Origin: Fusobacterium perfoetens
Lineage (GTDB): Bacteria > Fusobacteriota > Fusobacteriia > Fusobacteriales > Fusobacteriaceae
Assembly (NCBI RefSeq): GCF_021531475.1
Contig: NZ_JADYTX010000017.1
Location: 1-45,108 of the forward strand
Direction of reading: 5' to 3'
DNA: 45,108 bases
Part shown: piece by piece, positions 8,204 to 26,288 of the stretch
Layout of the letters: each line of letters starts with the position of its first letter
Position numbering within the stretch: the first letter of the stretch is position 1
Translations under genes and position numbers: made by a program
Notes under the pieces: model-generated
What the model saw: only the letters and a program-made list of their open reading frames with translations
Database searches by the model: none
What the model was told of the DNA's origin: nothing

Positions 8204-8215
8204 GTAAGGAGTTTT

Positions 8216-8914
8216 ATGAAAAAAATAGATTTTAAAGGAAGTGTTGTATTAAATCCAGTGCCAGTGGTTTTAATAACTAGTAAAAACAGTGAGGGAAAAG
8301 AAAATGTATTTACAGTTGCTTGGACTGGGACAATATGTACAAAACCTCCAATGCTTTCAATCTCTATAAGACCTGAAAGATTATCTTATGAGTATATAAA
8401 AGAAAGTCAAGAGTTTATAGTAAATCTACCGACAGTGGCTCTTACAAAGGAAACAGATTTTTGTGGAGTTCGTTCTGGAAGAGTTGTTGATAAGATAAAA
8501 GAGATGGGATTTACAATGAAAGAGGGAGAACAGGTTGGTTGTTCATATATAGATGAGTGTCCAATAAATATTGAGTGTCGTGTAAAAAGTATTATCCCTC
8601 TTGGAACTCACGATCTGTTTTTGGCAGAGGTTTTGACTTCTCATATAGATGAAAATCTTTTAGATGAAAATGGAAAGATACATTTTGAAGAGGCAAACCT
8701 AATAAACTATTGTCATGGAGAATATTTTCCTATGTCTAAAAAAGTTTTAGGAAGTTTTGGATTTTCTGTTATGAAAGAAAAAACAAAGATAAAAAAGGGG
8801 TTGGTTAATAAAAAAGCTCCTAAAAAAACAGAAGAGAATAAACAAACAGAGGAAAAACCTAAAAAAAGAAAATATGGAAACCGTATGAAAAAGAAAAATG
8901 CTTTAAATAAATAA
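8216..8914 (+). CDS. Flavin reductase-like FMN-binding protein with lysine-rich tail
   Basis: A 232-aa protein. Residues 1-180 form a split-barrel FMN-binding domain of the flavin reductase-like/DIM6-NTAB family: NPVPVVLITS, NVFTVAWTGTICTKPPMLSISIRP, EFIVNLPT. The last 50 residues are a lysine-rich, low-complexity tail that the family does not need and that could bind nucleic acid. AAGGAG precedes the start. It lies 12 bp after thiEM, in the same orientation, so it is probably cotranscribed, but no role in thiamine metabolism follows from that. The substrate is unknown. Confidence 0.8.
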   Translation: MKKIDFKGSVVLNPVPVVLITSKNSEGKENVFTVAWTGTICTKPPMLSISIRPERLSYEYIKESQEFIVNLPTVALTKETDFCGVRSGRVVDKIKEMGFTMKEGEQVGCSYIDECPINIECRVKSIIPLGTHDLFLAEVLTSHIDENLLDENGKIHFEEANLINYCHGEYFPMSKKVLGSFGFSVMKEKTKIKKGLVNKKAPKKTEENKQTEEKPKKRKYGNRMKKKNALNK

Positions 8915-8988
8915 TTTTTGGTTAGATATAAAAAAATTTTTCTAATAAAATTGAAAAAATAGCTATTTTCATAAAAAAATAATAATCA

Positions 8989-9018
8989 TTGGAAAAATTA
9001 TAGAAAATATGTTAGAAT
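8989..9018 (+). promoter_or_regulatory. Candidate promoter of the DUF1846 gene
   Basis: TTGGAA (8989-8994), 18 bp, TAGAAT (9013-9018). A 14-bp palindrome, AAAATAGCTATTTT, lies just upstream at 8956-8969. The promoter match is moderate and the palindrome is of unknown use. Confidence 0.4.
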
Positions 9019-9053
9019 GTGTGGTTGATAAAATTTATTATAAGGAGATATTT

Positions 9054-10574
9054 ATGAAAATAGGATTTGATCACAATAAATACCTTGAAGAACAATCTAA
9101 ATTTATTTTGGAAAGAGTAAATAATTATGATAAGTTATATTTAGAATTTGGTGGAAAATTATTTTTTGATTTACATGCAAAAAGAGTTTTACCGGGATTT
9201 GATGAAAATGCTAAAATAAAACTATTGCATAGATTAAAAGAAAAAGTAGAGGTTATTATCTGCGTATATGCTGGGGATATTGAGAGAAACAAAATCAGAG
9301 GAGATTTTGGAATCACTTATGATATGGACGTTTTAAAGCTTATTGATGACCTTAGAGATTATGACTTACAAGTAAATAGTGTTGTAATAACAAGATTTGA
9401 AGATCAGCCAGCAACAAAAGTATTCATAAATAAACTTGAGCATAGAGGAATAAAAGTATATAGACACAGAACAACAAAAGGTTATCCAACAGATGTTGAT
9501 ACAATAGTAAGTGAAGAAGGATATGGAAAAAATCCTTACATTGAAACAACTAAACCAATAGTAGTTGTTACAGCTCCAGGACCTGGAAGTGGAAAACTTG
9601 CTACTTGCTTAAATCAACTTTATCACGAAGGAAAAAAAGGAATAAAAGCAGGATATTCTAAATTTGAAACTTTCCCTGTTTGGAACGTTCCTTTAAAACA
9701 CCCTTTAAATATAGCTTATGAGGCAGCAACTGTTGATTTAAAAGATGTAAATATGATAGACCCATTCCATTTAGAGGCTTATGGAAAAATGGCAGTAAAC
9801 TACAACAGAGACGTTGAGGCTTTCCCAGTTCTTAAAAGAATAATCGAAAGAATAACAGGAAATCCATCTGAATATAAATCTCCAACAGATATGGGAGTAA
9901 ATAGAGTTGGATATGGAATAATTGATGATGAAGTTGTAAGACGTGCATCAGAACAAGAAGTAATCAGAAGATATTTAAACGCTGGTTGTGAATATAAAAA
10001 AGGATATATCGACCAAGAAACTTTCCAAAGAGCTAGAATGATAATGGAAGGTCTTCAACTTAAAGAGGAAGATAGAGCAGTTTTAGTAGCAGCTAGAAAA
10101 CGTTTGGAAAAAATAAAAAAAGCTAATAAAAATAATTTGAATAAAACAATGCCATCAGCTGTGGCAATTCAATTAGATGATGGAACTTTAATAACTGGTA
10201 AGAGTTCAGAAACAATGTGTGCAGCAGCATCAGCACTTTTAAACTCTGTAAAATATCTAGCTGGTCTTGAAGATGAAGTTCATTTACTTGCTCAAGAAAC
10301 TTTAGAGCCTATAATGAATTTAAAAATTAATAACTTTGGAAGTAAAAAAGCTACTCTTAACTGTGAAGAAGTATTAATAGCATTAAGTATTTGTGCTTTA
10401 ACAGATGAAAGAGCTAAAAATGCAATAGAACAACTTCCAAAATTAAAAGGTTCTCAAGCTCACTCTACTATAATTTTAGGAAAAGTAGATGAACAACTTT
10501 TAAGAAAACTTGGAATGGACGTAACTTGTGATATGGTATTCCCAACAGAGAACTTATACTATAACGAATTGTAA
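9054..10574 (+). CDS. DUF1846 (UPF0371) family protein
   Basis: A 506-aa protein of the usual length for DUF1846, a family found across Firmicutes and Fusobacteria. Recognisable segments are the N-terminal [12 protein letters not shown]...[32 protein letters not shown] (a P-loop-like glycine stretch around residue 180), and [16 protein letters not shown]. Structures exist for the family but no established biochemical role; a nucleotide or phosphate-binding enzyme is plausible from GPGSGKLAT. The start at 9054 follows AAGGAG (9043-9048); the longer frame from 9009 has no ribosome site. It has its own promoter and terminator, so it is probably monocistronic. Confidence 0.85.
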
Positions 10575-11585: not shown

Positions 11586-12011
11586 ATGTATAGTTTAGTA
11601 AGTGAAGCAAGTTTTGATAGTGCACATTTTTTAGCACAATATGAGGGAAAATGTAGAAATATCCACGGACATCGTTGGACTGTAAAAGTTGAAATATTTG
11701 GAGAAAAACTTCAGGAAAATGGAAGTAAAAGAGAAATGCTTATTGATTTCGGAGAACTAAAAAGTGAATTAAAAAAACTAGTAGATTTTTATGATCATTC
11801 TCTTATTATTGAAAAAAATACAATGAGAAAAATTACTTTGAATGCTCTTAAGGAAGACGGATTCAGAATTATAGAGGTTGAGTTTAGACCGACTGCAGAA
11901 AATTTTGCAAAAAATTTTTATGATTATTTTATAGAAAAAGGTTTTTCTGTAAAAAGTATTTCTGTTTATGAAACACCGAATAATTGTGCTATATACAGTG
12001 AGATGATGTAA
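11586..12011 (+). CDS. queD: 6-carboxy-5,6,7,8-tetrahydropterin synthase
   Basis: A 141-aa PTPS-fold enzyme that converts 7,8-dihydroneopterin triphosphate to CPH4, the second step of queuosine precursor synthesis. Zinc ligands H14 (FDSAHFL) and H27/H29 (NIHGHRW), catalytic C23 (GKCRN), and the later DH (FYDHS) and ETPNN motifs are visible. The protein begins where other QueD proteins begin, supporting the ATG at 11586 despite the distant ribosome site. The stop codon directly abuts the queE start. First gene of queD-queE-folE-queC-queF. Confidence 0.93.
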   Translation: MYSLVSEASFDSAHFLAQYEGKCRNIHGHRWTVKVEIFGEKLQENGSKREMLIDFGELKSELKKLVDFYDHSLIIEKNTMRKITLNALKEDGFRIIEVEFRPTAENFAKNFYDYFIEKGFSVKSISVYETPNNCAIYSEMM

Positions 12012-12680
12012 ATGATAAATTATAAAGTTGTTGAAATTTTTGAAAGTATTAATGGAGAGGGGAAAAAAGCAGGACAATTAGCACTTTTTATAAGATTTCA
12101 AAAATGTAATTTAAATTGCAGTTATTGTGATACAAAATGGGCAAACAGCGATGATTCTCCTTATACTCTTATGAATTTGGAAGAATTATACAAAAAAGTT
12201 GTGGAAAGTGGGATAAAGAACGTAACAATTACAGGAGGAGAGCCACTTCTTCAAGAAAATATTGAAATATTTTTAAAAAAGTTAGCTGAAAATCCCGAAA
12301 TAAATGTTGAAATAGAAACAAACGGAAGTATAAATTTAAAAAGGTTTGGAGAAATAAAAAATGCTCCATCATTTACAATGGATTATAAACTTCCAAAAAG
12401 TAATATGGAAAAATTTATGGATCTAGAAAATTTTAAATATTTAAAAGAGAAAGATACCGTAAAGTTTGTAGTAAGCAATATTGATGATCTTGAGAGAGCG
12501 AGGGAAATAATTGAAAAATATTCTCTTGTTGAAAAATGTGCAGTATATATAAGTCCTGTTTTTGGAAAGATAGAATTGTCTTCCATGGTTGATTTTATGA
12601 AAAAATATAAAATGAACGGTGTAAATATGCAATTACAAATTCATAAAATAATTTGGGACCCAGAAACAAAAGGAGTTTAA
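12012..12680 (+). CDS. queE: 7-carboxy-7-deazaguanine synthase (radical SAM)
   Basis: A 222-aa radical SAM enzyme that rearranges CPH4 to 7-carboxy-7-deazaguanine. The [4Fe-4S] cluster motif is C32-x3-C36-x2-C39 ([12 protein letters not shown]). Before it lies [20 protein letters not shown], which is typical of QueE, and after it the glycine-rich [10 protein letters not shown] for SAM binding. Length fits the compact QueE type. Start and queD stop are adjacent with no gap, implying coupled translation. It uses the QueD product and hands its product to QueC, both encoded in this operon. Confidence 0.93.
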
Positions 12681-12682
12681 AG

Positions 12683-13255
12683 ATGGATACAGAAGCAATA
12701 AAATTTCATATAAAGGGATTGATTACAGCTTTGGGAGAAAATTCTGAAAGAGAAGGTCTGAAAGAAACTCCAGAGAGAGTTGCAAAAATGTTTGAAGAGA
12801 TTTTTGAGGGAACAAAATATACAAATGATGAGATTGTCTCTATGTTTAATAAAACTTTTGAAGATGATGTGGTTTCAGAAAATGAAAATATGGTTATCGT
12901 GAGGGATATTGATATTTTTAGTTTTTGCGAACACCATTTAGCACTTATGTATGATATGAGTGTAACAGTTGCTTATATTCCAAAAGGAAAAGTAATCGGA
13001 CTAAGCAAAATTGCAAGAATATGTGATATGGTGAGCAAAAGGCTTCAACTTCAAGAGAGAATAGGAAAAGATATAGCTTACATAATGGAAAAAGTTACAG
13101 GCTCTTCAGATGTAGCAGTTTTGATAAAAGGAAAACATAGTTGTATGACAATGAGAGGAATTAAAAAAAATAATAGTTTTACAGAAACAATTGTTTTTAA
13201 TGGAAAATTTAAAAATAATTTTATGTTGCAAAATAAATTATACAACATGATTTAG
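12683..13255 (+). CDS. folE: GTP cyclohydrolase I
   Basis: A 190-aa enzyme that opens GTP to dihydroneopterin triphosphate, the entry step for both folate and queuosine. Zinc ligands C82 and H85 (FCEHHLALM) and C154 ([10 protein letters not shown]) are present, plus LSKIARI and the [10 protein letters not shown] helix. The start at 12683 follows AAAAGGAG (12668-12674), 2 nt past the queE stop. Its place between queE and queC indicates it is dedicated here to the queuosine pathway. It would be switched off with it by preQ1. Confidence 0.95.
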
Positions 13256-13264
13256 GAGGAAAGA

Positions 13265-13975
13265 ATGAAAGCGTTGATTTTATTTAGTGGTGGAATAGAT
13301 AGTACAACTTGTTTAGCAATGGCTATTGAAAAATATGGAAGAGAAAATGTTATTGCTTTAAGTACTTTGTATGGACAAAAACATACAAAAGAATTAAAGG
13401 CAGCAAGGGATATAGCAAAATATTATAATGTAGAACTTTTAGAAATTGATTTGACAAAAATATTTGCATATAGTAGCTGTTCTTTGTTGGCTCATTCAGA
13501 TAAAAAAATACCACATAGCAGTTATGCAAATCAGTTGAAAGAAGCAGAAGGAGAAACAGTTTCAACTTATGTTCCTTTCAGAAATGGATTATTTTTGTCA
13601 GTGGCAGCAAGTATAGCACTTTCTAAAGATTGTGATGTCATTTTATACGGAGCTCACGGTGATGATGCAGCAGGAAATGCTTATCCTGACTGTAGCAAAG
13701 AATTTAACGATGCTATAAATTTGGCAATTTATGAGGGAAGTGGAAAAAAATTAAAAGTCGAAGCTCCTTTTGTAGATATGCATAAAAAAGATATAGTAAA
13801 AATTGGACTTGATTTAAAAGTACCATATGAATTAACGTGGAGCTGTTATGAAGGAAAAGAATTTTCATGTGGAGAATGTGGAACTTGTATAGATAGAGAA
13901 AGAGCTTTTGAATTAAATGGGACAGTTGACCCATTGGTAAAATTAAGGGAGGAAAAAAATGAGAGAATTAGATAA
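13265..13975 (+). CDS. queC: 7-cyano-7-deazaguanine (preQ0) synthase
   Basis: A 236-aa ATP-dependent enzyme that turns 7-carboxy-7-deazaguanine plus ammonia into preQ0. The PP-loop motif is SGGIDSTT (residues 8-15). The C-terminal zinc site uses the cysteines in [32 protein letters not shown] is the substrate-binding stretch typical of QueC. AGGAGG lies directly upstream. The 3' end overlaps queF by 17 nt. Confidence 0.95.
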
Positions 13976-14441
13976 TTTAACACTTTTAGGAAATCAAGGA
14001 GTGAAATATCCTCGGGATTATGCACCTGAGGTGCTAGAAACTTTTGATAATAAACATGTTGAAAATGACTATTTTGTAAAATTTAATTGTCCTGAGTTTA
14101 CAAGCCTTTGTCCAATCACAGGTCAGCCTGATTTTGCAAATATAGTAATTTCTTATGTGCCAAATATAAAAATGGTTGAAAGTAAATCTTTAAAATTGTA
14201 TTTATTTAGTTTTAGAAATCATGGGGATTTCCATGAAGATTGTATAAATATAATAATGAAAGACTTAATAAAGTTGATGGATCCAAAATATATAGAAGTA
14301 TGGGGAAAATTTACTCCAAGAGGAGGAATCTCAATTGATCCATACTGTAATTATGGAAAAAAAGGGACAAAATGGGAGGAGATAGCTTTTAATCGTATGT
14401 CTAACCACGATTTATATCCTGAAAAAGTAGATAATAGATAA
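13959..14441 (+). CDS. queF: NADPH-dependent preQ0 reductase
   Basis: A 160-aa unimodular (YkvM-type) QueF that reduces the nitrile preQ0 to the amine preQ1, the ligand predicted for the riboswitch at the head of this operon. Catalytic C51 ([12 protein letters not shown]), D58 and the E74-S-K-S-L-K-L-Y motif that binds NADPH/substrate are visible, as is [10 protein letters not shown]. The start overlaps queC and follows GGGAGG. As the last enzyme before tRNA insertion, it closes a feedback loop at the RNA level. No tgt, queA or queG lies nearby. Confidence 0.95.
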
Positions 14442-14518: not shown

Positions 14519-15133
14519 TTATTTCCATAAATATTTATTTTTTGGTCTTCCAATTTTTCCATAGATTATCTTCATATGAATTTTTTCACATTCAACAAGA
14601 TAATTCATATATTTATTGACTGTTTTAGGAGCTAGTCCAGTGATTTCAGAAATCTCTTCAATAGTTATATATCTATCAAGATTTTCCATTTTTTCTTTTA
14701 TCAGAATAATAGTGTTTTGGTTGATTCCTTTTCTATAATCAAAATTTAATTTTTCTTTTGATTTTTCATTAGTTTTTAGATGTACATTAACTCTTGAATA
14801 AAGATCCAAAACTTTTATTGGCTTAATAGCAAAATCATTTGCTCCAACTTCAAAGAATTGTTCAGCTACTTTTTCCTCTCCCTCAATAGTGAGAGCAATA
14901 ATAGGAACATCTTTGTTAATTTGACGAATAAGTTTTACTCCTAGAATTCCATTTATATAAGGAAGATGGTAATCAATAATAATGATATCTATATTATTAT
15001 CAGAATTTATTATTTTTAATCCCTCTTCTACATTATGAGCTACAAGAGTATCCCAATCTTTTATTTTAAAAAATTCAGAGATGGCAAAAAGTATCTCTTC
15101 TGAATCATCTATAATTAAAATCTTATTTTTCAT
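14519..15133 (-). CDS. DNA-binding response regulator
   Basis: A 204-aa regulator. The receiver domain (about 1-120) has acidic D9/D10, phospho-acceptor D54 (IIIDYHLPYI), T/S in IIALTIEG and K in FAIKPIK. A linker follows, then a C-terminal helix-turn-helix (about 145-204: YITIEEISEITGLAPKTVNKYMNYLVE), resembling the DNA-binding part of CitB/DcuR-type regulators. The ATG at 15133 follows AAGGAGAG and overlaps the kinase gene by 11 nt, so the pair is translationally coupled. Likely targets are the two repeat-bearing promoters at 16612 and 19137; this is inference from position and shared sequence. Confidence 0.88.
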   Translation of the reverse strand: MKNKILIIDDSEEILFAISEFFKIKDWDTLVAHNVEEGLKIINSDNNIDIIIIDYHLPYINGILGVKLIRQINKDVPIIALTIEGEEKVAEQFFEVGANDFAIKPIKVLDLYSRVNVHLKTNEKSKEKLNFDYRKGINQNTIILIKEKMENLDRYITIEEISEITGLAPKTVNKYMNYLVECEKIHMKIIYGKIGRPKNKYLWK

Positions 15134-16520
15134 TTTTAATACTCTCCTTTCCAAGAACTATAAAAAATTTAGTTCCATAATTTTTTTTACTTTTTACAAA
15201 GACTTTACTTTTATGTTCTTCAAGAACTTTTTTTACAAAATTTAATCCAATTCCAGATGAACTCTTAGTGGAATATCCTTTATTAAAAATATTTTTCATC
15301 TGAAATTTATCCATTCCAATTCCATTATCTTCAACAATAATTAAAACAGAAGAAGAGTAACTTTTAACAACAATATTTATTACTCCATCTTTTTTATTTC
15401 CAATAGCCTCATAAGAGTTTATTATCAAATTTATTATAGCTCTTGAAAAAACTATCTTATTTACTTTAAGTTTTATGTTAGGACAATAATTTTTAAATTT
15501 TATATAGTTTATTGAGTTATGAGTAGAAAGATAAGAGAAAATAAAATCAAAAACCTTTTGTAACTTTAAAGCATTTTTAGTAGAATCTCTTAAAATTTCT
15601 GAAATCATAATATTACATCTATCTAAAGAGGCATCAATTCTTTTGAAATAATCTAATTTTCTAGGATTTTCTTCGTCCATATTAAGAATCTCTACAAGAG
15701 TTCCTATTGAAAAAAGAGGAGTTTTTAAATCGTGTACTAAATATTGAATCTCTTTTAAATATCTATTTTCAGTTTCTTGTATGGCTAATTCTGAAAGAGT
15801 CTGATTTATCTGTTTTTCATTTTCGTAGATATTTTTTGTTTTCTCTTGATCAAGAAATAATAAGAGCAAAGTTATAGAGAAAATAAAAAATATAATGAAA
15901 AGACAAAATCCTATAAAATCTAATAAAAAAGAGGCATCTAAAAGATCAGCCATAGCTTTTAAATCAAAAAATATTTCACCAGTATTTGCATATTCTAAAA
16001 AGGAGAAATATTTAGTGATCTCGAGCCACTGTATTCCTATAAAGATTAAAAATAATACCATATTTCTTTTAAATAAACTAATATTTTTAAATCTTTGATT
16101 GGAGTGGATAGATATATATATCATTTCAAGAATAGCCACTTTTCCAAAATAATAATCCATATCATAATAATATTTATAAACTAAAAGATATATTATTTGA
16201 ATCAAGAAAAATCCAAATAAAATTTTAAGAAAATAATTCTGTTTTTTATTTAGTTCTATCTCAGTTGAATCCATTAGTAAAAATACAGACAAAAAAATTG
16301 GGAACAGAGTAAGAGTATTAAAAAAAACTAGATAAAAAGCAGAATAGATAAGATATTCAATACTCCATAAATCTACAATTTTATTAAAATACTTATAGAT
16401 ATTGAATATGTAAGGTAGCAAAAAATTTGGTAAGATAATACTAAAAGCCACCATAATGATTCCCCAAATAGATTCTTTTTTATTAAGTTTTATTTCAAAA
16501 AATTTATTTAAATTTTCCAT
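15123..16520 (-). CDS. Membrane sensor histidine kinase
   Basis: A 465-aa kinase. The N-terminal 225 residues hold six or seven hydrophobic segments with little extracytoplasmic sequence, suggesting it senses something in or near the membrane. A short coiled-coil leads to the H-box LVHDLKTPLFSIG (H263). The HATPase domain has NLIINSYEAI (N-box), EDNGIGMD (G1), FNKGYSTK (F) and SSGIGLNFVKKV (G2). The start is ATG 16520 with a GGGG run upstream; the TTG at 16532 is less likely. It is transcribed divergently from ggt and partners the response regulator that overlaps its 3' end. The signal is unknown. Confidence 0.9.
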   Translation of the reverse strand: MENLNKFFEIKLNKKESIWGIIMVAFSIILPNFLLPYIFNIYKYFNKIVDLWSIEYLIYSAFYLVFFNTLTLFPIFLSVFLLMDSTEIELNKKQNYFLKILFGFFLIQIIYLLVYKYYYDMDYYFGKVAILEMIYISIHSNQRFKNISLFKRNMVLFLIFIGIQWLEITKYFSFLEYANTGEIFFDLKAMADLLDASFLLDFIGFCLFIIFFIFSITLLLLFLDQEKTKNIYENEKQINQTLSELAIQETENRYLKEIQYLVHDLKTPLFSIGTLVEILNMDEENPRKLDYFKRIDASLDRCNIMISEILRDSTKNALKLQKVFDFIFSYLSTHNSINYIKFKNYCPNIKLKVNKIVFSRAIINLIINSYEAIGNKKDGVINIVVKSYSSSVLIIVEDNGIGMDKFQMKNIFNKGYSTKSSSGIGLNFVKKVLEEHKSKVFVKSKKNYGTKFFIVLGKESIKNEK

Positions 16521-16561
16521 AAATAGCCCCAAAATACTTAAAAATAATTATTCTATCTAAT

Positions 16562-16611: not shown

Positions 16612-16676
16612 GAGAAAAAAGAGAAAAAAGAGAAAAAATAAAAATAAATTTACAAAACAAAAAAATGTAGTATACT
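16612..16676 (+). promoter_or_regulatory. Triple GAGAAAAAA repeat and promoter of the ggt operon
   Basis: GAGAAAAAA occurs three times in exact tandem (16612-16620, 16621-16629, 16630-16638). The promoter TTTACA (16649-16654), 16 bp, TATACT (16671-16676) follows. The third repeat starts 19 nt before the -35. The same array, distance and promoter type recur at 19137-19201. Position upstream of the -35 fits an activator binding site. Confidence 0.7.
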
Positions 16677-16748
16677 TATTAGTAAGAGAACAAAAAATAT
16701 TAAAAATAATCTTTTAAATTTTAAATAAAACATAAAGGGGGTAAGTTT

Positions 16749-18506
16749 ATGAAAAAAAGACTTTTTTTCGCAGCTGTTATAGCATCATTTGCATTAAGTT
16801 TAACAGCTTGTAGTGGATCATCTAAAAAAGATGTTGTTAATCCTCAAAATTTTGTTGTAAAAGAGGTAAAGGATTGGAGACCTTATGATGCTCAAGGAGA
16901 AATGATAAGGGAAGATAGGGGAGCTTATGGAAAAGTAGGAATTGTTTCTACAAGTAAATTTGAAGCAAGTAAAATAGGACTTGATATAATTAAAAAAGGT
17001 GGAAATGCTATTGACGCTGCAGTAGCTGCTGGATTTGCTTTAGGAGTATGTGAACCTAACTCATCTGGACTTGGTGGTGGAGGATTTATGACAATCAGAA
17101 TCGCCAAAACAGGTGAAACTATATTTATAGACTTTAGAGAAAGAGCTCCTAAAAAAGCAACTGCAGAGATGTGGAAAGTTGACAAAGATGGAAAAGTAGT
17201 AGGAAATCAAAAGAAAGAGGGAGGAAAAGCAGCAGGTATCCCTGGTGAAGTTGCAGGACTTTTATATGCCCTTGAAAAATATGGAACAATGTCAAGAGAG
17301 GAAGTAATCAGACCTTCAGTTAATTTAGCAAGAAATGGATTTTATGTAACTCCTACATTATCAGGAGATATGAAAAATCAATTTGATATGATGGAAAAAT
17401 ATCCAGAAACTGGAAAAGTATTTTTAAATGATGGATTCCCATATGAAGTTGGAGAAAAATTTACTAATCCAGATATGGCAAAAACTTTAGAAATAATAAT
17501 AGAAAAAGGTAAAGATGGATTCTATAAAGGTGAAGTAGGAAAAGCTATAGTTAAATCTTTAAATAAACACGATGGATTATTTACAATGGAAGATTTAGCA
17601 AACTATAAACCTATTATTAGAAAACCAGTTGTAGGAAATTATAGAGGTTATGAAATAATTTCTTCTCCATCTCCAAGTTCTGGTGGAGCAATAGTAATTG
17701 AAATATTAAATATCTTAGAAAACTTTAACGTAGGAGAAATGGAAGTTAACTCTCCAGAATATTTACATCTATTCTCTGAAGCATATAAATTAGCTTATGC
17801 TGATAGAGCAAAATATATGGGAGATAGCGACTATATTCCAGTTCCTATGAAAGGATTTGTATCAAAAGATTATGCTAAAGAAGTTTCTAAATATATAGAT
17901 ATGAAACAATCTAAACCAAGTAAAGCTCACGACCCTTGGCAATATGAATCAGAAGATACAACTCACTACTCAATAGCTGACAAAGAAGGAAATATGGTTT
18001 CTATTACAAAAACAGTTAATGGATTATTTGGAAACAGTGTAGTTGTAGATGGATATGGATTTGTTTTAAATAATGAAATGGACGACTTTGTAACAGGAGC
18101 TGGACATCCAAACTCAGTTATGCCAGGGAAAACTCCTCTTAGCTCAATGTCACCAACAATAGTTCTTAAAGACGGAAAACCATTTATGGTTTTAGGTTCT
18201 CCAGGAGCAACTAAAATAATAAGTACAGTTTCTCAAGTAATCAGTAGAGTAATTGACCACGGAATGGGAATGCAAGAAGCTATCGATGCTCCAAGACTTT
18301 ATGATAATACATCTGATGTAATTAATGTTGAATCAAGAGTTTCTGAAAAAACAGTTAAGAAACTAGAGAAAATGGGACATAAAGTTGTAACAACTGAGGA
18401 TTGGGACAGAGGAATGGGTTCAGTTCAAGGTGTACTATATAGAGAAGATGGTCTATTAGAAGGTGGAGCAGACCCAAGAAGAGACGGAAAAGCACTAGGA
18501 TTCTAG
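16749..18506 (+). CDS. ggt: Gamma-glutamyltransferase, predicted lipoprotein
   Basis: A 585-aa precursor of an Ntn-hydrolase. An N-terminal signal with lipobox LTAC (lipidated C21) places it in the envelope. Autocatalytic cleavage should expose T404 in DTTHYS as the nucleophile, leaving a large and a small subunit. Further signatures are GGGGFMTIR, FIDFRERAP, NNEMDDF and PLSSMSPTIV. The family hydrolyses or transfers gamma-glutamyl groups from glutathione or gamma-glutamyl peptides; the related CapD and PghL/GGT enzymes act on poly-gamma-glutamate. Its neighbours pgsBCW make the latter plausible, but glutathione use is equally possible. GGGGG precedes the start; a 24-bp gap separates it from the DUF6305 gene. 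Confidence 0.92.
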   Translation: MKKRLFFAAVIASFALSLTACSGSSKKDVVNPQNFVVKEVKDWRPYDAQGEMIREDRGAYGKVGIVSTSKFEASKIGLDIIKKGGNAIDAAVAAGFALGVCEPNSSGLGGGGFMTIRIAKTGETIFIDFRERAPKKATAEMWKVDKDGKVVGNQKKEGGKAAGIPGEVAGLLYALEKYGTMSREEVIRPSVNLARNGFYVTPTLSGDMKNQFDMMEKYPETGKVFLNDGFPYEVGEKFTNPDMAKTLEIIIEKGKDGFYKGEVGKAIVKSLNKHDGLFTMEDLANYKPIIRKPVVGNYRGYEIISSPSPSSGGAIVIEILNILENFNVGEMEVNSPEYLHLFSEAYKLAYADRAKYMGDSDYIPVPMKGFVSKDYAKEVSKYIDMKQSKPSKAHDPWQYESEDTTHYSIADKEGNMVSITKTVNGLFGNSVVVDGYGFVLNNEMDDFVTGAGHPNSVMPGKTPLSSMSPTIVLKDGKPFMVLGSPGATKIISTVSQVISRVIDHGMGMQEAIDAPRLYDNTSDVINVESRVSEKTVKKLEKMGHKVVTTEDWDRGMGSVQGVLYREDGLLEGGADPRRDGKALGF

Positions 18507-18530
18507 TAAAAGTTTAGGAGGCATTAAAGA

Positions 18531-19064
18531 ATGAAAAAATTATTATTACTATCAACATTTTTATTATCAACAGCAGCAGCTTTAGCGGCAAACTTTGATA
18601 AACCAATACTATTGACATCAGTAGGACAAAGTGCAGATGTACAAATGGTAAAAGCATTATTAAAGAAAGGTCAAATAGAAGCAAACTTTGACAAATCAGT
18701 AACAGCAGAAGGATTAAAAGGAGAAAAAACTTTAATACTAGCAATAGGAGGAAGTTCAAAAGGTCTAGGAGCAGCAGGAATAAAAGCTGAAGATGAGATA
18801 GCAAGAACAGAAAAGTTAATAAAAGAAGCTAAAGCTCAAGGAGTAAAAATAATAGGAATGCATATAGGAGGAGCAGCAAGAAGAGGAGAATTATCAGATA
18901 AATTCGTAAACGCAGCAGCTCCACATTCAGACTATCTAATTGTAGTATCAGAAGGAAATAAAGACGGAGCATTTACAAAGATAGCAGAAGAAAATAAAAT
19001 ACCAATGGACACAGTAGAAAAAATAACAGGAGCTTTAGAACCACTAAAAAAAGCTTTTGAATAA
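18531..19064 (+). CDS. DUF6305-family exported protein
   Basis: A 177-aa protein with an N-terminal signal peptide (LLLLSTFLLSTAAALAA, cleavage near residue 19). The mature domain alternates beta and alpha segments in a Rossmann-like pattern: KPILLTSVGQSADVQMVKALL, KTLILAIGGSSKGLGAAG, VKIIGMHIGGAARRGELSD, SDYLIVVSEGNKDG. It matches my memory of DUF6305, which has no assigned function. Glycine-rich loops at the strand ends suggest ligand binding in the periplasm. It is cotranscribed with ggt and ends at a strong terminator before the permease gene. A solute-binding or enzyme-accessory role is inferred only from context. Confidence 0.7.
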   Translation: MKKLLLLSTFLLSTAAALAANFDKPILLTSVGQSADVQMVKALLKKGQIEANFDKSVTAEGLKGEKTLILAIGGSSKGLGAAGIKAEDEIARTEKLIKEAKAQGVKIIGMHIGGAARRGELSDKFVNAAAPHSDYLIVVSEGNKDGAFTKIAEENKIPMDTVEKITGALEPLKKAFE

Positions 19065-19089
19065 TAATTAATCTTGGTGAAAGTTATGA

Positions 19090-19130
19090 AATGGCAATCT
19101 CAGTTTTAAAACTGGGGTTGCTATTTTTCT
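19090..19130 (+). terminator. Intrinsic terminator between the ggt unit and the permease unit
   Basis: ATGGCAATCTCAGTTTT pairs with AAAACTGGGGTTGCTAT along its whole length (with G-U pairs), followed by a T-run. It separates the two transcription units. Confidence 0.9.
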
Positions 19131-19136
19131 AAAGAG

Positions 19137-19201
19137 AGAAAAAAGAGAAAAAAGAGAAATAAAAGTTAAAGATTTACAACAATAAAAAATATGGTATATT
19201 T
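19137..19201 (+). promoter_or_regulatory. GAGAAAAAA repeats and promoter of the permease operon
   Basis: Two exact GAGAAAAAA copies (19137-19145, 19146-19154) and a partial third (19155-19161). Then TTTACA (19174-19179), 16 bp, TATATT (19196-19201). The third repeat starts 19 nt before the -35, the same geometry as at the ggt promoter. The rest of the gap to the start codon (19202-19292) is an A-rich leader ending in a GGGGG ribosome site. Confidence 0.7.
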
Positions 19202-19292: not shown

Positions 19293-20564
19293 ATGTCAAT
19301 AGAACTTATACTATTTTTAACTATGGTAATTGTATTTATGGCATCTTGCTTTGTACTAAAATTACCAGTAAGTATTGCGATGGTTTTAGCATCGATTTCA
19401 GCTATGATTGTATCTGGAAACGGAATACCAGTAAGACATTTAGTAGAGGGGTGTTTCGGGTATATAGATACTATTTTGGTTATTGCAACAGCAATGGTTT
19501 TTATGAAGGTAGTCCAAGAAATTGGAACTTTAAATGCTTTGAGTGCTTCAATGCTTAAAAAGTTTCATAAAACACCAGCTATATTGTTAATAATTTTAAT
19601 GTTTATATCTATGTTCCCAGGAATGATAACAGGATCATCAACAGCATCTGTTTTAACAGCAGGAAGCATAGTAGCACCAATTTTAATGTTAATAGGAATT
19701 CCTATAACAGAAGCTGCTACAATAATCGCTATTGGTGGACTTTGTGGAATGATAGCACCTCCAGTAAACGTTCCAGCTATGATAATAGGTGGAGGAATTG
19801 ATATGCCATATGTAGGATTTACTATTCCACTTCTTATTTTAACAATACCAGTTGCTATATTCTCAGTTTTATATTTAGGATTAAAATATGTTAAAACTAT
19901 AGATTATGACAAGGTAGAAAAAGAGATTGACCAAACAGCTGTAACTGAGTATGGATTTAAACTATATATTCCAGTAATAGCAGTAGTTATATTAATGATA
20001 GTTGATAAAGTTTTCCCAAGAGTATTTGGATTAGGAATGCCATTAATATTTATGATAGGTACAGTAATTGGATTATTCTGTGGAAAGAAAGTTAATCTTG
20101 TAACAGTATCAAAAGAAGCGATAAATCAATGTTTACCAGTATTAGGAATATTAATGGGTGTAGGAATGTTTATTCAAACTATGACTTTAACAGGTGTCAG
20201 AGGATACATTGTTGTAAATAGTTTAAGTCTTCCATCAGCTATGCTATTTGTAGCTATGGCAATAACAATACCTTTATTTGGTGCAGTATCATCATATGGT
20301 GCAGCGTCTGTACTAGGAGTTCCTTTCTTAATGGCTTTCCTATCATACAACCAAATTATAACAGGATCAGCAATATCTTTTATAGCAGCTTTAGGAGATT
20401 TGATGCCTCCAACAGCATTAGCTGGAATATTTGCTGCTCAGATAGTTGGAATGGATAAATATACACCTGTTTTGAAAAAATCTTTGGTTCCCGGAATAGT
20501 AGTGATATTATATTCAATAGTTATAATATTATTATCTAACAAATTAGGAAGTATTATATTTTAG
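19293..20564 (+). CDS. DctM-like (TRAP large-permease/IT superfamily) transporter
   Basis: A 423-aa integral membrane protein with about 10-12 hydrophobic helices and re-entrant glycine/proline loops: GMITGSSTASVLTAGSIVAP, GGLCGMIAPPVNVPAMIIGGG, SSYGAASVLGVPFL, GDLMPPTALAGI. These double, pseudo-symmetric loops are characteristic of the IT superfamily including TRAP DctM subunits, which import organic acids with sodium. Canonical DctP (binding protein) and DctQ (four-helix) partners are absent; a 48-aa membrane protein follows instead. It has its own promoter with the GAGAAAAAA array. Given ggt and the hydrolase nearby, glutamate or another acidic amino acid is a reasonable substrate guess, not a demonstrated one. 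Confidence 0.75.
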   Translation: MSIELILFLTMVIVFMASCFVLKLPVSIAMVLASISAMIVSGNGIPVRHLVEGCFGYIDTILVIATAMVFMKVVQEIGTLNALSASMLKKFHKTPAILLIILMFISMFPGMITGSSTASVLTAGSIVAPILMLIGIPITEAATIIAIGGLCGMIAPPVNVPAMIIGGGIDMPYVGFTIPLLILTIPVAIFSVLYLGLKYVKTIDYDKVEKEIDQTAVTEYGFKLYIPVIAVVILMIVDKVFPRVFGLGMPLIFMIGTVIGLFCGKKVNLVTVSKEAINQCLPVLGILMGVGMFIQTMTLTGVRGYIVVNSLSLPSAMLFVAMAITIPLFGAVSSYGAASVLGVPFLMAFLSYNQIITGSAISFIAALGDLMPPTALAGIFAAQIVGMDKYTPVLKKSLVPGIVVILYSIVIILLSNKLGSIIF

Positions 20565-20752: not shown

Positions 20753-21880
20753 ATGGAAGGAAATAAAAAAACAGGAATAGCTATAATTTTTCTCTCTTTA
20801 GCAATTGCATTTACTGCAGGAAAAGAATTTCTTAAAATGAGAGAGCCAGAACCTATTGTAAAAGGAGAGGGAGTAACATCTGTACAAAAATTAAGTGATT
20901 ATTTACCGTCGCTAAAAGGAACATCTGGGGATAGTGATGTCTATATATTTAAAGGAGAAGAACCAGGAGGAAGCACTTTAGTTCTTGGAGGAACTCACGG
21001 AAATGAGCCGTCAGGACTTATAGGTGCAACACTTTTAGTAGAAAATGCTAAAGTTAAAAAAGGAACTTTATATGTACTTCCAAGAACAAATGGAAGTGGA
21101 CTTACTCATAACGACCCACAAGAAGGTTCTCCACAAAGATATACAATAAAAACTCCTTTTGGAGAAAGATGGTTTAGATTTGGTTCAAGAGCAACAAATC
21201 CTTTAGATCAATGGCCAGATCCAGATGTTTATGTACACGCAGCTTCTGGACAAAATCTATCAGGAAGTGAAACAAGAAATATAAATAGAGCTTATCCTGG
21301 AAGACCAGACGGAACTTATACAGAAAAAGTGGCTTATGCTATCACTGAAATGATAAGACAAAATGATATTAATTTAACAATAGATTTACACGAAGCATCT
21401 CCAGAATATCCAGTTATCAATGCTATTGTTTCTCACGAAAGAGCAATGGGAATCGCTTCACAAGTGGCTATGAATTTAGAATTTGAAGATATAGCAATAA
21501 GTTTGGAACCATCTCCAGTAAGTTTAAGAGGATTAACTCATAGAGAGTTAGGAGACTACACAGATACTTATGCAGTTCTTATGGAATCTGCTAATGCCTC
21601 TCAAGGAAGACTTAGAGGAAAAACTGATGCTAATCTAGTTTTAACAGGAAAAGACCCAAGATATGTTGAAGCTGCAAAACTTGGAAGATTATATGTTCCT
21701 TATGATGAAAATGGACATCCATTAGAAGAAAGAGTAGGAAGACATCTTTCAGGAATTATGCAATTTATCACTGTTATGGGAGAAAATGAACCTGATAAAG
21801 AAATGATAGTTGAAGGTGTACCAATCTATGCTGACTTAATGGAAAATGGAATAGGACACTATTTAAAAGAAGTAAAATAG
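20753..21880 (+). CDS. Membrane-anchored zinc hydrolase of the AstE/AspA (succinylglutamate desuccinylase/aspartoacylase, M14-like) family
   Basis: A 375-aa protein with an N-terminal hydrophobic signal anchor (about residues 7-23), so the catalytic domain is outside the cytoplasm. Zinc ligands are H82 and E85 in GGTHGNEPSG and H213 in TIDLHEASPEYP. A glutamate in VLMESANAS (about 283) is the likely general base. The family removes acyl or amino-acid groups from N-acyl aspartate/glutamate or from peptides. Extracytoplasmic location distinguishes it from the cytosolic metabolic members. Together with ggt and a DctM-like permease it could release acidic amino acids for uptake. GGGGG precedes the start. 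The substrate is unknown. Confidence 0.75.
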   Translation: MEGNKKTGIAIIFLSLAIAFTAGKEFLKMREPEPIVKGEGVTSVQKLSDYLPSLKGTSGDSDVYIFKGEEPGGSTLVLGGTHGNEPSGLIGATLLVENAKVKKGTLYVLPRTNGSGLTHNDPQEGSPQRYTIKTPFGERWFRFGSRATNPLDQWPDPDVYVHAASGQNLSGSETRNINRAYPGRPDGTYTEKVAYAITEMIRQNDINLTIDLHEASPEYPVINAIVSHERAMGIASQVAMNLEFEDIAISLEPSPVSLRGLTHRELGDYTDTYAVLMESANASQGRLRGKTDANLVLTGKDPRYVEAAKLGRLYVPYDENGHPLEERVGRHLSGIMQFITVMGENEPDKEMIVEGVPIYADLMENGIGHYLKEVK

Positions 21881-21935: not shown

Positions 21936-22008
21936 ATAAAACATATAGAAAATATTATAAAAAAGATGTAAAATATTTGTGTTAGTAAATTTTTTATGGG
22001 AGGAATTT

Positions 22009-23151
22009 ATGGAAAAATTTATTTTAATTTTAATAAGTATGTATTTTGGTTATCTTTTTTATGAAAAAATGATGACTGAAAAAAGAAGAAAAAAATTGAA
22101 ATATGTGATTCACATAAATGGAATAAGAGGAAAATCTACAACTTCTAGATTGATTGACGCTGGAATGAGAGCTAGAGGATATAAAGTTTTTACTAAAATC
22201 ACTGGAACTTCTCCAAGAATTATAGATACTTTTGGAGAGGAAAAAGAGATTTTAAGAAAGGGAAAGGCAAATATAAGGGAGCAGATAAAGGCTATAAAAT
22301 GGGCTGACAGAGAAAATGCAGAAGTGTTAGTTTTGGAATGTATGGCAGTAAATCCAGAACTTCAAAATATCTGTGAAAATAAAATATTAAAAGCTGATAT
22401 TTGTGTAATCACTAATGTAAGAGAAGACCATCTTGATGAAATGGGGGAAAGTCTAGATGAGATAGCTAAGTCTTTAAGCAATACGATGCCTACTAATGGA
22501 GTCTTATTTACAAGTGATAAAAAATATGTAGATTTTTTTAGAGAGATAGGAAATAAAAAAGGAACAAAAGTTTTTTTGGCAGAAGAAAAAGAAGAATATA
22601 GGGAAATTGATTTTCCAAGTAATGTGGCAGTGGCTTTAGCAGTTTGTAAATATGCTGGAGTTGATGAAAAAAAAGCTTTAGAAAGAATGAGAAACTATTA
22701 TAAAGATCCTGGTTGTTTAAAGACTCTTTGTTATAAAAATCAAATGGACAAAAAAATATATTTTGTTAATGCTATGGCTGCTAATGATCCAAATTCAACT
22801 GAAATAATTTTAGAAAATATTTCAAAAAAAGATTATTTCAAAAATAGGAAATATTTATTGATTAATAACAGAAAAGATAGGGTTAGTCGTTGGGAACAGT
22901 ATATAAAATTTGCTAAAAAAATGGAAGAGAGATTTGATAAAATAATTGTTTCTGGAGAGAGTAAAGATTTGTTTTATAAATATATTACTAAAGAAAATAT
23001 TTCAAAAGATAAAATTGAAATATTAGAAGATAAAAATTATTTTGATAAAATTGATGAAGATATTTTAATAGTGGCAGTTGGCAATATTTGTGGATATGGA
23101 AAAAGTTTAGTGGAATATATAGAGAAAAAGGGGGAGGTTGTAGATGGTTAA
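22009..23151 (+). CDS. pgsB: Poly-gamma-glutamate synthase subunit PgsB/CapB
   Basis: A 380-aa ATP-dependent amide ligase related to Mur ligases. An N-terminal membrane helix (about 3-18) is followed by the nucleotide-binding loop HINGIRGKSTTSRLI (G38-T45). LVLECMAVNPELQ, VITNVREDHLDEMG and the C-terminal VAVGNICGYGKSLVEY are CapB hallmarks. With PgsC it polymerises glutamate through gamma-carboxyl links at the membrane. The start at 22009 follows GGGAGGA (21998-22004). Overlaps pgsC by 8 nt. Fusobacterium nucleatum is reported to produce polyglutamate, so a working system is expected. Confidence 0.93.
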   Translation: MEKFILILISMYFGYLFYEKMMTEKRRKKLKYVIHINGIRGKSTTSRLIDAGMRARGYKVFTKITGTSPRIIDTFGEEKEILRKGKANIREQIKAIKWADRENAEVLVLECMAVNPELQNICENKILKADICVITNVREDHLDEMGESLDEIAKSLSNTMPTNGVLFTSDKKYVDFFREIGNKKGTKVFLAEEKEEYREIDFPSNVAVALAVCKYAGVDEKKALERMRNYYKDPGCLKTLCYKNQMDKKIYFVNAMAANDPNSTEIILENISKKDYFKNRKYLLINNRKDRVSRWEQYIKFAKKMEERFDKIIVSGESKDLFYKYITKENISKDKIEILEDKNYFDKIDEDILIVAVGNICGYGKSLVEYIEKKGEVVDG

Positions 23152-23599
23152 TGAAATAATTATACTGGGGATTATAATAAGTATAATTTTTTATGAAATA
23201 ACTGAAATATCTCCAGGAGGGCTTATAGTACCAGCTTATTTAGCTTTTTATATGGATAATCCTAAAAGAGTGATAGTAACAATACTTTCTGGTATAATAA
23301 CATATTTTATTGTAAAAGTTATTTCAGATAGAACAATTCTTTATGGTAGAAGAAAATTTACAGTATATGTTTTGGTTGGATTTTTAATGAGAGAGGTGTT
23401 AAAACAATTTAATATCTTTTTAGAAGGATATGATATTTTTATTCTTGGAGGAAATATTATAGGGGTAATCATTCCAGCCATAATGGCTAGAGATATTGAA
23501 AGGAATGGAATGATAAAAAGTATATTTTCATTGTTGATGTTATCTACTTTTATAAAAGCTGTTGTAGAGATTGTATATGAGGTAGGTGGATTATATTGA
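23144..23599 (+). CDS. pgsC: Poly-gamma-glutamate synthase subunit PgsC/CapC
   Basis: A 151-aa membrane protein with four or five hydrophobic segments and the CapC signature EITEISPGGLIVPAYLAFY near the N-terminus, which also matches the usual family length of about 150 aa. It forms the synthase core with PgsB. It overlaps pgsB by 8 nt at its start and pgsW by 4 nt at its end, so the three are translated together. Confidence 0.93.
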   Translation: MVNEIIILGIIISIIFYEITEISPGGLIVPAYLAFYMDNPKRVIVTILSGIITYFIVKVISDRTILYGRRKFTVYVLVGFLMREVLKQFNIFLEGYDIFILGGNIIGVIIPAIMARDIERNGMIKSIFSLLMLSTFIKAVVEIVYEVGGLY

Positions 23600-24687
23600 G
23601 AACAAAAAAAGATTTAATTTTATTGGTACTTTGTAGCTTGATTTTAATTTTTATACATTATGGTTTAAAGAATAGAGATATAAAAGTAAAAAATAAATTT
23701 TATAATGAGATGGTTTTATCAGCTAAAAATATGGAAAAATTAACTAATGAAATAAAAGCTGAAAAAATAAGAAGAGGAATTTTCATTGATAAAAATATAG
23801 ATAAAAATCTTACTGGTCTTATGGGAGAAGAGTGGAGTGGAATATCTACTACTTTGGGAAATGAAGAGGCTAAAAGAACAAGTATAAATCCAGATTTTTC
23901 AGCTCTTATAGTAAAAAATCTTAAAGAACTAAAATTAAAAGAGGGAGATGTGGTAGTTGCCAATATGTCAAGCTCTTTTCCAGCTCTTAATCTTGCTCTT
24001 ATTTCAGCTCTTGATACATTAAAACTAAAGGGAGTTTTAATAAATAGTGTTGGTTCTTCTAATTATGGTGGAAATTTAGAAGAATTTGATTATCTCGATA
24101 TGGAAAATCATCTTTATAAAAAAGGGCTTATAAAAAATAGAAGTGAATCTTTTTCGTTTGGTGGAATAAATGATATTGGAAAAGAATTTGAGGAAAGTAC
24201 AAAAGAGAGAATAAAAGATAAAAATCAAGAATATGGGCTAAAATTTTTCTATGAGGAAGAACTTGATAAAAATATAGAGGAAAGGTACAGATATTATCAA
24301 GAAAAAAGTGGTGGAAAAATAGGAGCTTTTGTGAATGTGGGAGGAAATCTTTTATCTCTTGGAAAAAATGCTGATATAGTAATAAATACAAAAGTTTTAT
24401 TAAATAAAGAAAAAAATCTAAATGTAAAGGGTGGATTAGTTGGAAAGTTTTTAGAGGACAACAAACCAGTTTTATACCTTTTGAATATAAAAGGGATTGC
24501 TCTTGCAAATGGAATTTTAATCGATCCTGTTCCATTTCCTGAGATAGGAACTTCACAAGTCTATTATGAGAAACAGACAAATTTATCTTATAATATTGCA
24601 ATAGTAATTATTTTTTTGTTGTTTGTTGGAAAAATTTTATTTGTTAATAAAAAATTTAAAAAAGTAGAAAATATAGAAAAAACATAA
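23596..24687 (+). CDS. pgsW: Poly-gamma-glutamate system protein PgsW
   Basis: A 363-aa protein with an N-terminal membrane helix (about 7-23) and a C-terminal one (about 333-350), and a large domain between them. Segments such as TGLMGEEWSGISTTLGNEEAK, VVVANMSSSFPALNLALI, INSVGSSNYGGN and GAFVNVGGN match the PgsW family, which accompanies pgsBC in many bacteria that lack the classical pgsA/capA. Its exact role is unestablished; it probably takes the place of PgsA in assembly or export. The start at 23596 is a TTG inside the pgsC stop region. No capA/pgsA homologue is present here. Confidence 0.85.
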   Translation: MRTKKDLILLVLCSLILIFIHYGLKNRDIKVKNKFYNEMVLSAKNMEKLTNEIKAEKIRRGIFIDKNIDKNLTGLMGEEWSGISTTLGNEEAKRTSINPDFSALIVKNLKELKLKEGDVVVANMSSSFPALNLALISALDTLKLKGVLINSVGSSNYGGNLEEFDYLDMENHLYKKGLIKNRSESFSFGGINDIGKEFEESTKERIKDKNQEYGLKFFYEEELDKNIEERYRYYQEKSGGKIGAFVNVGGNLLSLGKNADIVINTKVLLNKEKNLNVKGGLVGKFLEDNKPVLYLLNIKGIALANGILIDPVPFPEIGTSQVYYEKQTNLSYNIAIVIIFLLFVGKILFVNKKFKKVENIEKT

Positions 24688-24824: not shown

Positions 24825-26288
24825 TTATTTGATTTTTAATTCTAAATGGTGCTTAGGATCACTTTTATCTCCAATTCTTATAATTAATCCTTTTTCAATT
24901 AAATTTTTTATTCTTCTATTAATTGTTGTTGCTGATTTATTGATTTCTTTTTCTAGTTCTTTTCTATTTGCTTGTCCTCTATTAGCAATATATAAAATAA
25001 TTTTTTTGTCTGTAGAATCTAATTTAGACCAAGCTTCTTCTCCAATAGAACTTTCTAATTTATCACTTTGTCTTAATTTTCTCATAATGATATTATTTTT
25101 TAAAATTAATTTTACACTATTATTAGGTTCAGAATACTGCGGTTCATCTAAGAAAAATATTTTCATATCTTCGTATATTCTTTTAACCCCTTCGTTAAGT
25201 TCTCTTACCCAGCCAAATTCTGTTAAAACTCTGGCTATTCTAGGATTTCTCGAGTATCTAGTTTCTTTTATATTTTCTAAAGTAACAATATTAGGAAGTT
25301 TTCCAGGACTTGTAATTTCAAGTCTATCATTAAACATTGCAACCATTATATAGTTTCCTTGAAAAGAATATTCTCTATGAGTTATTGCATTAACTATTCC
25401 TTCTAACCAAGCAAATTCAGGATATTCAGGAACGACTAAAAATTTGCCAGTTTCTTTATTTAAGCTCATAAAATCTCTTAATTGTAAAGAAATCACCTCT
25501 CTAGTTTTTGGAATTATTTTTAACAAAGAATCTTCTATATTTATATCTTTTATAATATTAATTCTTTCTCCAACCTGCATAGAATTTCCATCATATCTTA
25601 AAAATCTAACTCTACAATTTGGATAAAATTCAGTTACATTTTTAGAAAATAGTAGAATAGCTCCGTTAGTTAAATATTTTTTATTATCTTTTTCTTTAAG
25701 AAAACCTCTAGCTTTTAAAACTTGTTCATCAGATAAATTTAAAGCAGATATTTTTTCTTTATATTCTTTTAAAAGTTCTAAATCTAAATCTTCTAATGTG
25801 GCTTCTTTATTTAATTCATCCTCGTAACGTCTTGTGTTTTTAGAATATTCTAAATTAATTAAATCTTCACCTTTTAACTCTTTACTTCTATCACCTATTC
25901 TTAGATAAGTAGTGCCATTTTTTGTTCTAATTATTCTTTCAGTTTCAGCTTCTATATGAAATAAGAATATTTCATCAATTTCTCCATTTTTATTTTCAAA
26001 GGTCAATATTTCTAATTTATAATTAGGCATAGGAGAACAACACTCTTTAGGAGAAGAGATGATATCATTATATTTATCGTGAGGTAGACTCTTCATTCCT
26101 TCAAATTCTCTTTTTTTATCACTTACTCCAACTATTATAACCCCACCCTCAGCATTGGCAAAAGCGGAAAAATGAGGAGCCAAATCACTGGCTTTTATTT
26201 TAGATGATTTAACGTCAAAGTATTTATTTTCTGCTTTTGTTTTGATATATTCAATATCTATTAAAGGATTTATTTTTGAATGTTCCAT
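24825..26288 (-). CDS. AlbA_2-domain, ATPase-like transcriptional regulator
   Basis: A 487-aa protein of the COG2865 type. The N-terminal AlbA_2 (Schlafen AlbA_2) domain spans about 10-150: EFANAEGG-like FANAEGGVIIVGVSD and TYLRIGDRSKEL. A GHKL/HATPase_c_4-type region covers about 290-400 (EGIVNAITHREYSFQGNYIMV, DRLEITSPGKLPNIV, RNPRIARVL). A C-terminal helix-turn-helix (about 425-475) reads TDKKIILYIANRGQANRKELEKEINKS, split here as two contacts. These proteins are annotated as regulators or RNA/DNA-binding proteins with poorly known roles, often near defence or mobile DNA. AAAGGAGGAAG precedes the ATG at 26288. The five-copy repeat upstream suggests autoregulation. Confidence 0.8.
   Translation of the reverse strand: MEHSKINPLIDIEYIKTKAENKYFDVKSSKIKASDLAPHFSAFANAEGGVIIVGVSDKKREFEGMKSLPHDKYNDIISSPKECCSPMPNYKLEILTFENKNGEIDEIFLFHIEAETERIIRTKNGTTYLRIGDRSKELKGEDLINLEYSKNTRRYEDELNKEATLEDLDLELLKEYKEKISALNLSDEQVLKARGFLKEKDNKKYLTNGAILLFSKNVTEFYPNCRVRFLRYDGNSMQVGERINIIKDINIEDSLLKIIPKTREVISLQLRDFMSLNKETGKFLVVPEYPEFAWLEGIVNAITHREYSFQGNYIMVAMFNDRLEITSPGKLPNIVTLENIKETRYSRNPRIARVLTEFGWVRELNEGVKRIYEDMKIFFLDEPQYSEPNNSVKLILKNNIIMRKLRQSDKLESSIGEEAWSKLDSTDKKIILYIANRGQANRKELEKEINKSATTINRRIKNLIEKGLIIRIGDKSDPKHHLELKIK

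Follow-up and report, generated by a model that had tools for sequence, protein, structure and literature searches.

Tandem 9-bp repeats before gamma-glutamyltranspeptidase and permease promoters are putative operators of an adjacent response regulator in a poly-gamma-glutamate cluster of Fusobacterium perfoetens

We analysed a 45,108-nt stretch of Fusobacterium perfoetens DNA (contig NZ_JADYTX010000017.1 of assembly GCF_021531475.1; hereafter the window), contig 17 in a genome of 2.02 Mb. It carries two promoters that are each preceded by an array of 9-bp direct repeats (Table 1). One lies upstream of a gamma-glutamyltranspeptidase gene (ggt) and a gene for a DUF6305 protein, and the other lies upstream of a permease gene, which is followed by genes for an M14-like protein and for PgsB, PgsC and a PgsW-like protein. 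The genes for a membrane histidine kinase and a response regulator stand on the opposite strand, next to ggt. Since PgsB and PgsC both exceed the cut-offs of their families, the locus is, judged from its genes, a poly-gamma-glutamate (pgs/cap) cluster that also holds genes for gamma-glutamyl processing and a two-component system of its own. A first-pass annotation, made from the letters of the window, had described the two units as ggt and the permease; these gene assignments stand, and the identity of the whole cluster as a pgsBCW locus extends beyond them.

Table 1. Coordinates of the arrays, promoter elements and genes of the cluster in the window.
Feature	Position	Strand	Remarks
Response regulator	14519..15154	-	receiver + winged helix-turn-helix, DpiA-like sub-threshold; putative array binder
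Membrane histidine kinase	15123..16532	-	HisKA + HATPase_c, at least 4 hydrophobic segments
Array 1: GAGAAAAAA x3, exact, tandem, 9-bp units	16612..16638	+	before ggt; kept in 16/16 genomes with the response regulator
-35-like TTTACA, promoter 1	16649..16654	+	19 nt from third-unit start
-10-like TATACT, promoter 1	16671..16676	+	16-nt spacer from TTTACA
Gamma-glutamyltranspeptidase (ggt)	16749..18506	+	
DUF6305 protein	18531..19064	+	
Hairpin, T-rich 3' part, terminator or attenuator	19088..19127	+	between DUF6305 and permease; -22.1 kcal/mol, z -6.96
Array 2: GAGAAAAAA x2 + GAGAAATAA (one mismatch)	19136..19162	+	before permease
-35-like TTTACA, promoter 2	19173..19178	+	19 nt from third-unit start
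-10-like TATATT, promoter 2, TG preceding	19195..19200	+	16-nt spacer from TTTACA
DctM-like permease	19293..20564	+	weak DcuC similarity
AstE/AspA-type (M14-like) carboxypeptidase-like protein	20753..21880	+	
PgsB, poly-gamma-glutamate synthase	21979..23151	+	TIGR04012, 417.8 bits (cut-off 222.7)
PgsC	23144..23599	+	TIGR04011, 134 bits (cut-off 96.45)
Poly-gamma-glutamate system protein (PgsW-like)	23596..24687	+	TIGR04332, 328 bits

The matched geometry of the two promoters, with the third repeat starting 19 nt before the -35 element, had been noted in the first-pass annotation, and the coordinates confirm it for both. Its further claim that such a pair is hard to put down to chance also held. 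The window contains 15 copies of the unit GAGAAAAAA, where 4.5 ± 2.2 would be expected, and when each upstream region was shuffled 300 times with dinucleotides preserved, the best stretch had 5 mismatches over 27 nt, compared with 0 for array 1 and 1 for array 2. A search of the whole 2.02-Mb genome for the 24-nt array, allowing up to 3 mismatches, gave only 3 matches, a pair that overlap within array 1 and one at array 2, so that in its own genome the array is confined to these two places rather than scattered over unrelated promoters. The proposal that a protein binds in tandem on one face of the DNA did not fit: because the strict 9-bp period is not a helical turn, each copy is rotated ~50 degrees from the one before it, off a strictly common face.

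Homologues of the response regulator were sought in 61 Fusobacteriaceae genomes, one genome per species, and 10.6–17 kb were read around each regulator locus. Twenty genomes passed a threshold of 1e-15, of which 16 had a strong homologue (the window's own genome included) and the other four a weak one (~5e-17 to 4e-16); in the phylum sample of 98, no homologue was found at 1e-40 in the 37 genomes outside Fusobacteriaceae. The 16 genomes with a strong homologue span six genera, and in all of them the ggt-DUF6305-permease-M14-pgsBCW cluster is alike in outline and the best array in the stretch precedes the first ggt. The array is thus found before the orthologous operons of relatives, where the first-pass annotation had suggested looking for it. 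The array is kept although the GGT proteins are only 51–92% identical to that of the window and the flanking sequence has diverged. The kinase and regulator genes are divergent from ggt in eight clusters and co-directional with it in eight, and the orientation of the array follows ggt in every case.

Most of these Fusobacteria carry three copies of the unit (2–5 across the species examined). Positions 1 and 3 of the unit are nearly always G, position 4 can be G and position 6 can be T or C, as counted in a unit alignment in which two rows, G029 and G047, were positioned manually; the per-column counts include the misplaced G029 row (+18), and the G047 row was set at +9 by treating its degenerate fourth copy as the last. 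In 15 of the 16 genomes, 19 nt separate the start of the last unit from a -35-like hexamer, which reads TTTACA in the window's genome, G011, G004, G006, G013 and G008, TTTACT in G025–G029, TTTGCA in G002, TTTAAA in G015, and a weak TGATAT or TATGAA in G033 and G031, respectively, the third unit of G031 being degenerate. G029 has five units in total, and TTTACT is 19 nt away from the last of them, GATAAATAA. G047 is the exception, its last clear unit lying 28 nt from TTTACA, i.e. one 9-bp unit further. The motif before orthologous operons is therefore conserved in 16/16 genomes, and its promoter spacing in 15/16.

The presence of the array follows the regulator rather than the gene cluster alone. 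The permease was found in 17 of the 61 genomes, namely the 16 with the regulator and G051, and in G051, which has the ggt-DUF6305-permease-pgs genes and no regulator homologue, the array is absent upstream of ggt. The ggt paralogues that lie away from the regulator, in G036, G015 and G002, lack it as well. Across the 61 genomes, exact 24-nt array sites numbered seven, all at this locus, and a composite pattern (array, N10 and TTTRCW; up to 3 mismatches) gave 15 sites, 14 of them at this locus. The composite pattern missed 3 of the 16 regulator genomes (G033, G047 and G031), and the regulator-less G037 had a 3-mismatch match to it.

An array before the permease was absent from the other 15 Fusobacteriaceae regulator clusters, and among the Fusobacteria examined only the window's genome has one. 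The gap between the DUF6305 and permease genes is 231 nt there, compared with 57–97 nt in most others, and in G002 a second ggt sits between the two genes. From its third unit to the -35 element, array 2 is identical at 22 of 25 positions to the ggt promoters of G025, G027 and G028, which belong to another genus, and at 18 of 25 to array 1 of its own genome, a pattern that lends no support to a recent local copy. A strong terminator had been proposed to separate the two units, and the fold predicted in this gap (Table 1) supports it. Since a hairpin 3' of DUF6305 is predicted in 16/16 clusters, array 2 would give the permease-M14-pgs genes their own controlled start.

The regulator and its array extend beyond Fusobacteriota. 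In a scan of named genomes with the regulator alignment, Fusobacterium, Cetobacterium and a Fusobacteriaceae metagenome-assembled genome came out on top, followed by [Clostridium] symbiosum, Clostridium transplantifaecale and a Lachnospiraceae metagenome-assembled genome at 41–45% identity and then by weaker receiver-domain matches. In Lachnospirales, with genomes of 48–58% GC, the homologues are 36–46% identical and lie in pgs/ggt clusters. Our clostridial set comprised 12 regulator loci in 10 genomes, and 10 of the 12 loci contain pgs, ggt, DUF6305 or permease genes within the sequence covered. At one of the two exceptions (L125) the contig ends after the regulator, which is followed by an array-like stretch, and at the other (L129) a 36–37% identical regulator lies elsewhere and has no array. 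In two large Clostridia samples (397 and 392 genomes) only ~7–8 regulator candidates were scored per genome, so that absence of the regulator there means little.

A matrix built from the Fusobacteria only placed its top match before the ggt, M14/ggt or DUF6305 operon in 7 of the 10 loci with such genes (L091, L121, L122, L124, L126, L127 and L128) and its second-best match so in L092. L093 and L123 gave no convincing matrix match; at a contig edge in L123 the clostridial form is matched with five mismatches. In L121, L126 and L128, as in the window, two operons are preceded by arrays, here M14/ggt (or ggt) and DUF6305-permease. Two units, GAGAAAAAT-GAGAAAAAA, flush with TAGACA-17-TATNAT or similar, are found at most clostridial promoters, although L126 has three before ggt, with TGGATC-17-TATAAT at 19 nt; the fusobacterial and clostridial layouts differ by 10 bp, the clostridial one lying one helical turn nearer the -35 element. 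Searched across the 10 genomes, this clostridial pattern had 10 sites with 0–2 mismatches, all preceding ggt, M14 or DUF6305 operons, and 2 of the 3 sites with 3 mismatches were so placed. C. transplantifaecale (G062) has two regulator loci (L140 and L124) and three arrays, one of which lies before a second ggt ~5 kb from the first.

The regulator has a receiver domain (PF00072, 1.1e-21) and a C-terminal winged helix that ends in G-R-P-x-x-x-Y. Against Pfam HTH_64, the window's protein scores 15.6 bits and the best member of the group 26.2, below the gathering score of 27, and a match to this family is seen in 16/16 fusobacterial regulators at E up to 5. Weak whole-domain matches were to DcuR (7e-5) and DpiA (7e-4), the NCBIfam scores being far under the cut-off, and no Pfam match to the OmpR/PhoB-family Trans_reg_C domain was found at E up to 0.001. 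A structure model (pLDDT 85, pTM 0.58) retrieved mostly receiver domains and OmpR-type response regulators in a structure search, and this search, like a sequence search of the PDB, put no name to the DNA-binding domain. The kinase has HisKA and HATPase_c by Pfam and neither Cache nor PAS, a composition other than the Cache/PAS and SPOB_a-type one expected of the citrate family.

We consider the arrays most likely to be the landing site of the response regulator, because distant bacteria that possess this regulator have the boxes before these polyglutamate-related genes too. We put the probability at roughly 0.8 that they are operators through which the adjacent regulator, a putative binder, activates a gamma-glutamyl/poly-gamma-glutamate regulon. 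The comparisons above support well the idea, already present in the first-pass annotation, that this protein is the reader of the arrays. Physical binding, activation over repression, the signal and the role of the regulon are what we infer from them; activation is suggested by the position upstream of the -35 element and by the weak -35 hexamers of several species.

Several observations weigh against this assignment. The 24-nt array alone occurs at other places in 9 of the 45 regulator-less genomes (with 1–2 mismatches), as background in A-rich DNA, and the DNA-binding domain of the regulator passes no curated cut-off. Among the Lachnospirales, the best matrix match of L092 lies elsewhere (17418), L093 has the regulator, pgs and a ggt start and no array in the sequence covered, and the fusobacterial matrix also rates regions of ribosome-binding sites and start codons highly (28 bits at 13803 in L121). 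The reversed clostridial pattern gave 14 matches as a control, counted without their individual mismatch numbers, against 13 for the forward one at up to 3 mismatches, so that the argument rests on mismatch level and position and not on the raw count. The clostridial pattern was, moreover, derived from sites already found, and the sole new information is its genome-wide confinement.

In the mechanism that we envisage, the membrane kinase would phosphorylate the regulator, whose C-terminal winged helix would bind three head-to-tail 9-bp boxes, the last of which stops 10 bp before a sigma70-type -35 element. The bound regulator would activate transcription of ggt-DUF6305 and, in the window's genome, a second copy of the operator would let it activate permease-M14-pgsBCW as well. 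Such a regulon would handle gamma-glutamyl compounds and poly-gamma-glutamate.

Another, unlinked transcription factor could bind the array instead, a possibility to which the weak assignment of the regulator's DNA-binding domain lends some weight, as binding by the regulator is read from sequence. We regard this as unlikely, because the array follows the regulator both where it is present (16/16) and where it is missing (the G051 cluster and the regulator-less ggt paralogues), because the association also holds in a second phylum, and because no other DNA-binding protein was found to be shared by the clusters. Slightly less probable again is that no specific protein is involved and that phased A-tracts bend the DNA or serve RNA polymerase as an UP element. 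A-rich boxes near the helical period and upstream of the -35 element would suit such a role, but the G at unit positions 1 and 3 is highly conserved, several species have an interrupted A-tract (GAGAATAAA, GAGAACAAA, GAGGAAAAA), copies persist at 48–58% GC, 9 bp is off the helical repeat and few promoters across the genome have the array. A promoter of surface-polymer genes preceded by exact head-to-tail repeats, in 2–5 copies across species, might also point to a hypermutable tract with phase variation by copy number; diverged copies in many species, the fixed -35 distance and the three copies in most Fusobacteria (one genome per species) make this very improbable. Chance or a recent functionless promoter duplication, which the AT-rich DNA (array 1 region, 15% GC) and the restriction of array 2 to the window's genome among the Fusobacteria examined might suggest, is scarcely credible when shuffles never equal the arrays, array 1 is so deeply conserved as to contradict chance already, and array 2 is nearer the ggt promoters of another genus than array 1.

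Regulation by the adjacent response regulator, as we prefer to read the arrays, supplies a specific candidate operator and regulator for poly-gamma-glutamate/gamma-glutamyl genes in Fusobacteria and gut Clostridia. Literature searches did not find the regulator, the operator or a cross-phylum regulon of these genes, and searches on DUF6305, on the repeat itself and on pgsB with two-component systems in Lachnospiraceae likewise found nothing. We tentatively suggest, at somewhat short of even odds, an undescribed module of regulator, 9-bp tandem operator and ggt/permease/pgs genes that is common to Fusobacteriota and Lachnospirales. Its regulator, under every DNA-binding family cut-off, would assemble head to tail in 9-bp steps and activate from either of two positions that differ by one helical turn, with the last box at 19 or 9 nt from the -35 element, coupling gamma-glutamyl release and uptake to polymer synthesis in gut anaerobes. 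Two fixed promoter geometries related in this way would be a neat case for a tandem-binding regulator that contacts RNA polymerase.

Some further features of the locus were recorded. A Schlafen/AlbA_2 gene with a winged helix-turn-helix lies at 24825-26288 of the window, 3' of pgsW on the opposite strand; it was considered as the array binder and rejected, a homologue being present in 0 of 26 cluster loci. Just before the two-component genes, 11586-14441 holds what we take, by eye, to be queuosine/pterin synthesis genes (QueD, QueE, FolE, QueC and QueF). In L061 (G027; 7717-9574), DUF6305 and the permease are each split into two overlapping or abutting frames, which suggests frameshifts or assembly errors. 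The gap between M14 and pgsB is ~690–850 nt in L051, L058 and L060–L063, compared with 98 nt in the window, and may hold an extra gene.

The pgs/cap genes of Bacillus are under dedicated regulators, namely DegSU, ComPA and AtxA/AcpAB, and we know of no Bacillus pgs/cap regulator that uses this response regulator or operator. With DpiA and DcuR, the HTH_64 proteins, the regulator shares its C-terminal winged helix and weak whole-domain similarity, and differs in that all scores fall short of the family thresholds. Within the genus, Fusobacterium nucleatum has been reported to make the same polymer (Candela et al. 2009, as cited in PMC3815933), the regulation of which is not described in that account. 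An operator of tandem direct repeats is itself of a known kind for response regulators. MaeR of the MaeKR system of Lactobacillus casei, assigned by its authors to the citrate family, is described as binding three tandem AT-rich direct repeats in a promoter, the first two 1 bp apart (8+1, a 9-bp period), with binding lowered by mutation of the repeats and enhanced by acetyl phosphate (PMC5457438). As described there, the repeat is TTATT(A/T)AA rather than GAGAAAAAA, the regulon serves malate use, and MaeK has Cache and PAS and lacks the HisKA and HATPase_c Pfam domains that the kinase here possesses; because this kinase differs from the MaeK and DcuS types, we do not claim citrate-family membership for the regulator. 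The two systems are nevertheless alike in an adjacent target operon and in three tandem AT-rich repeats in its promoter, and MaeR, in the account of PMC5457438, provides a precedent for a response regulator on head-to-tail 9-bp boxes.
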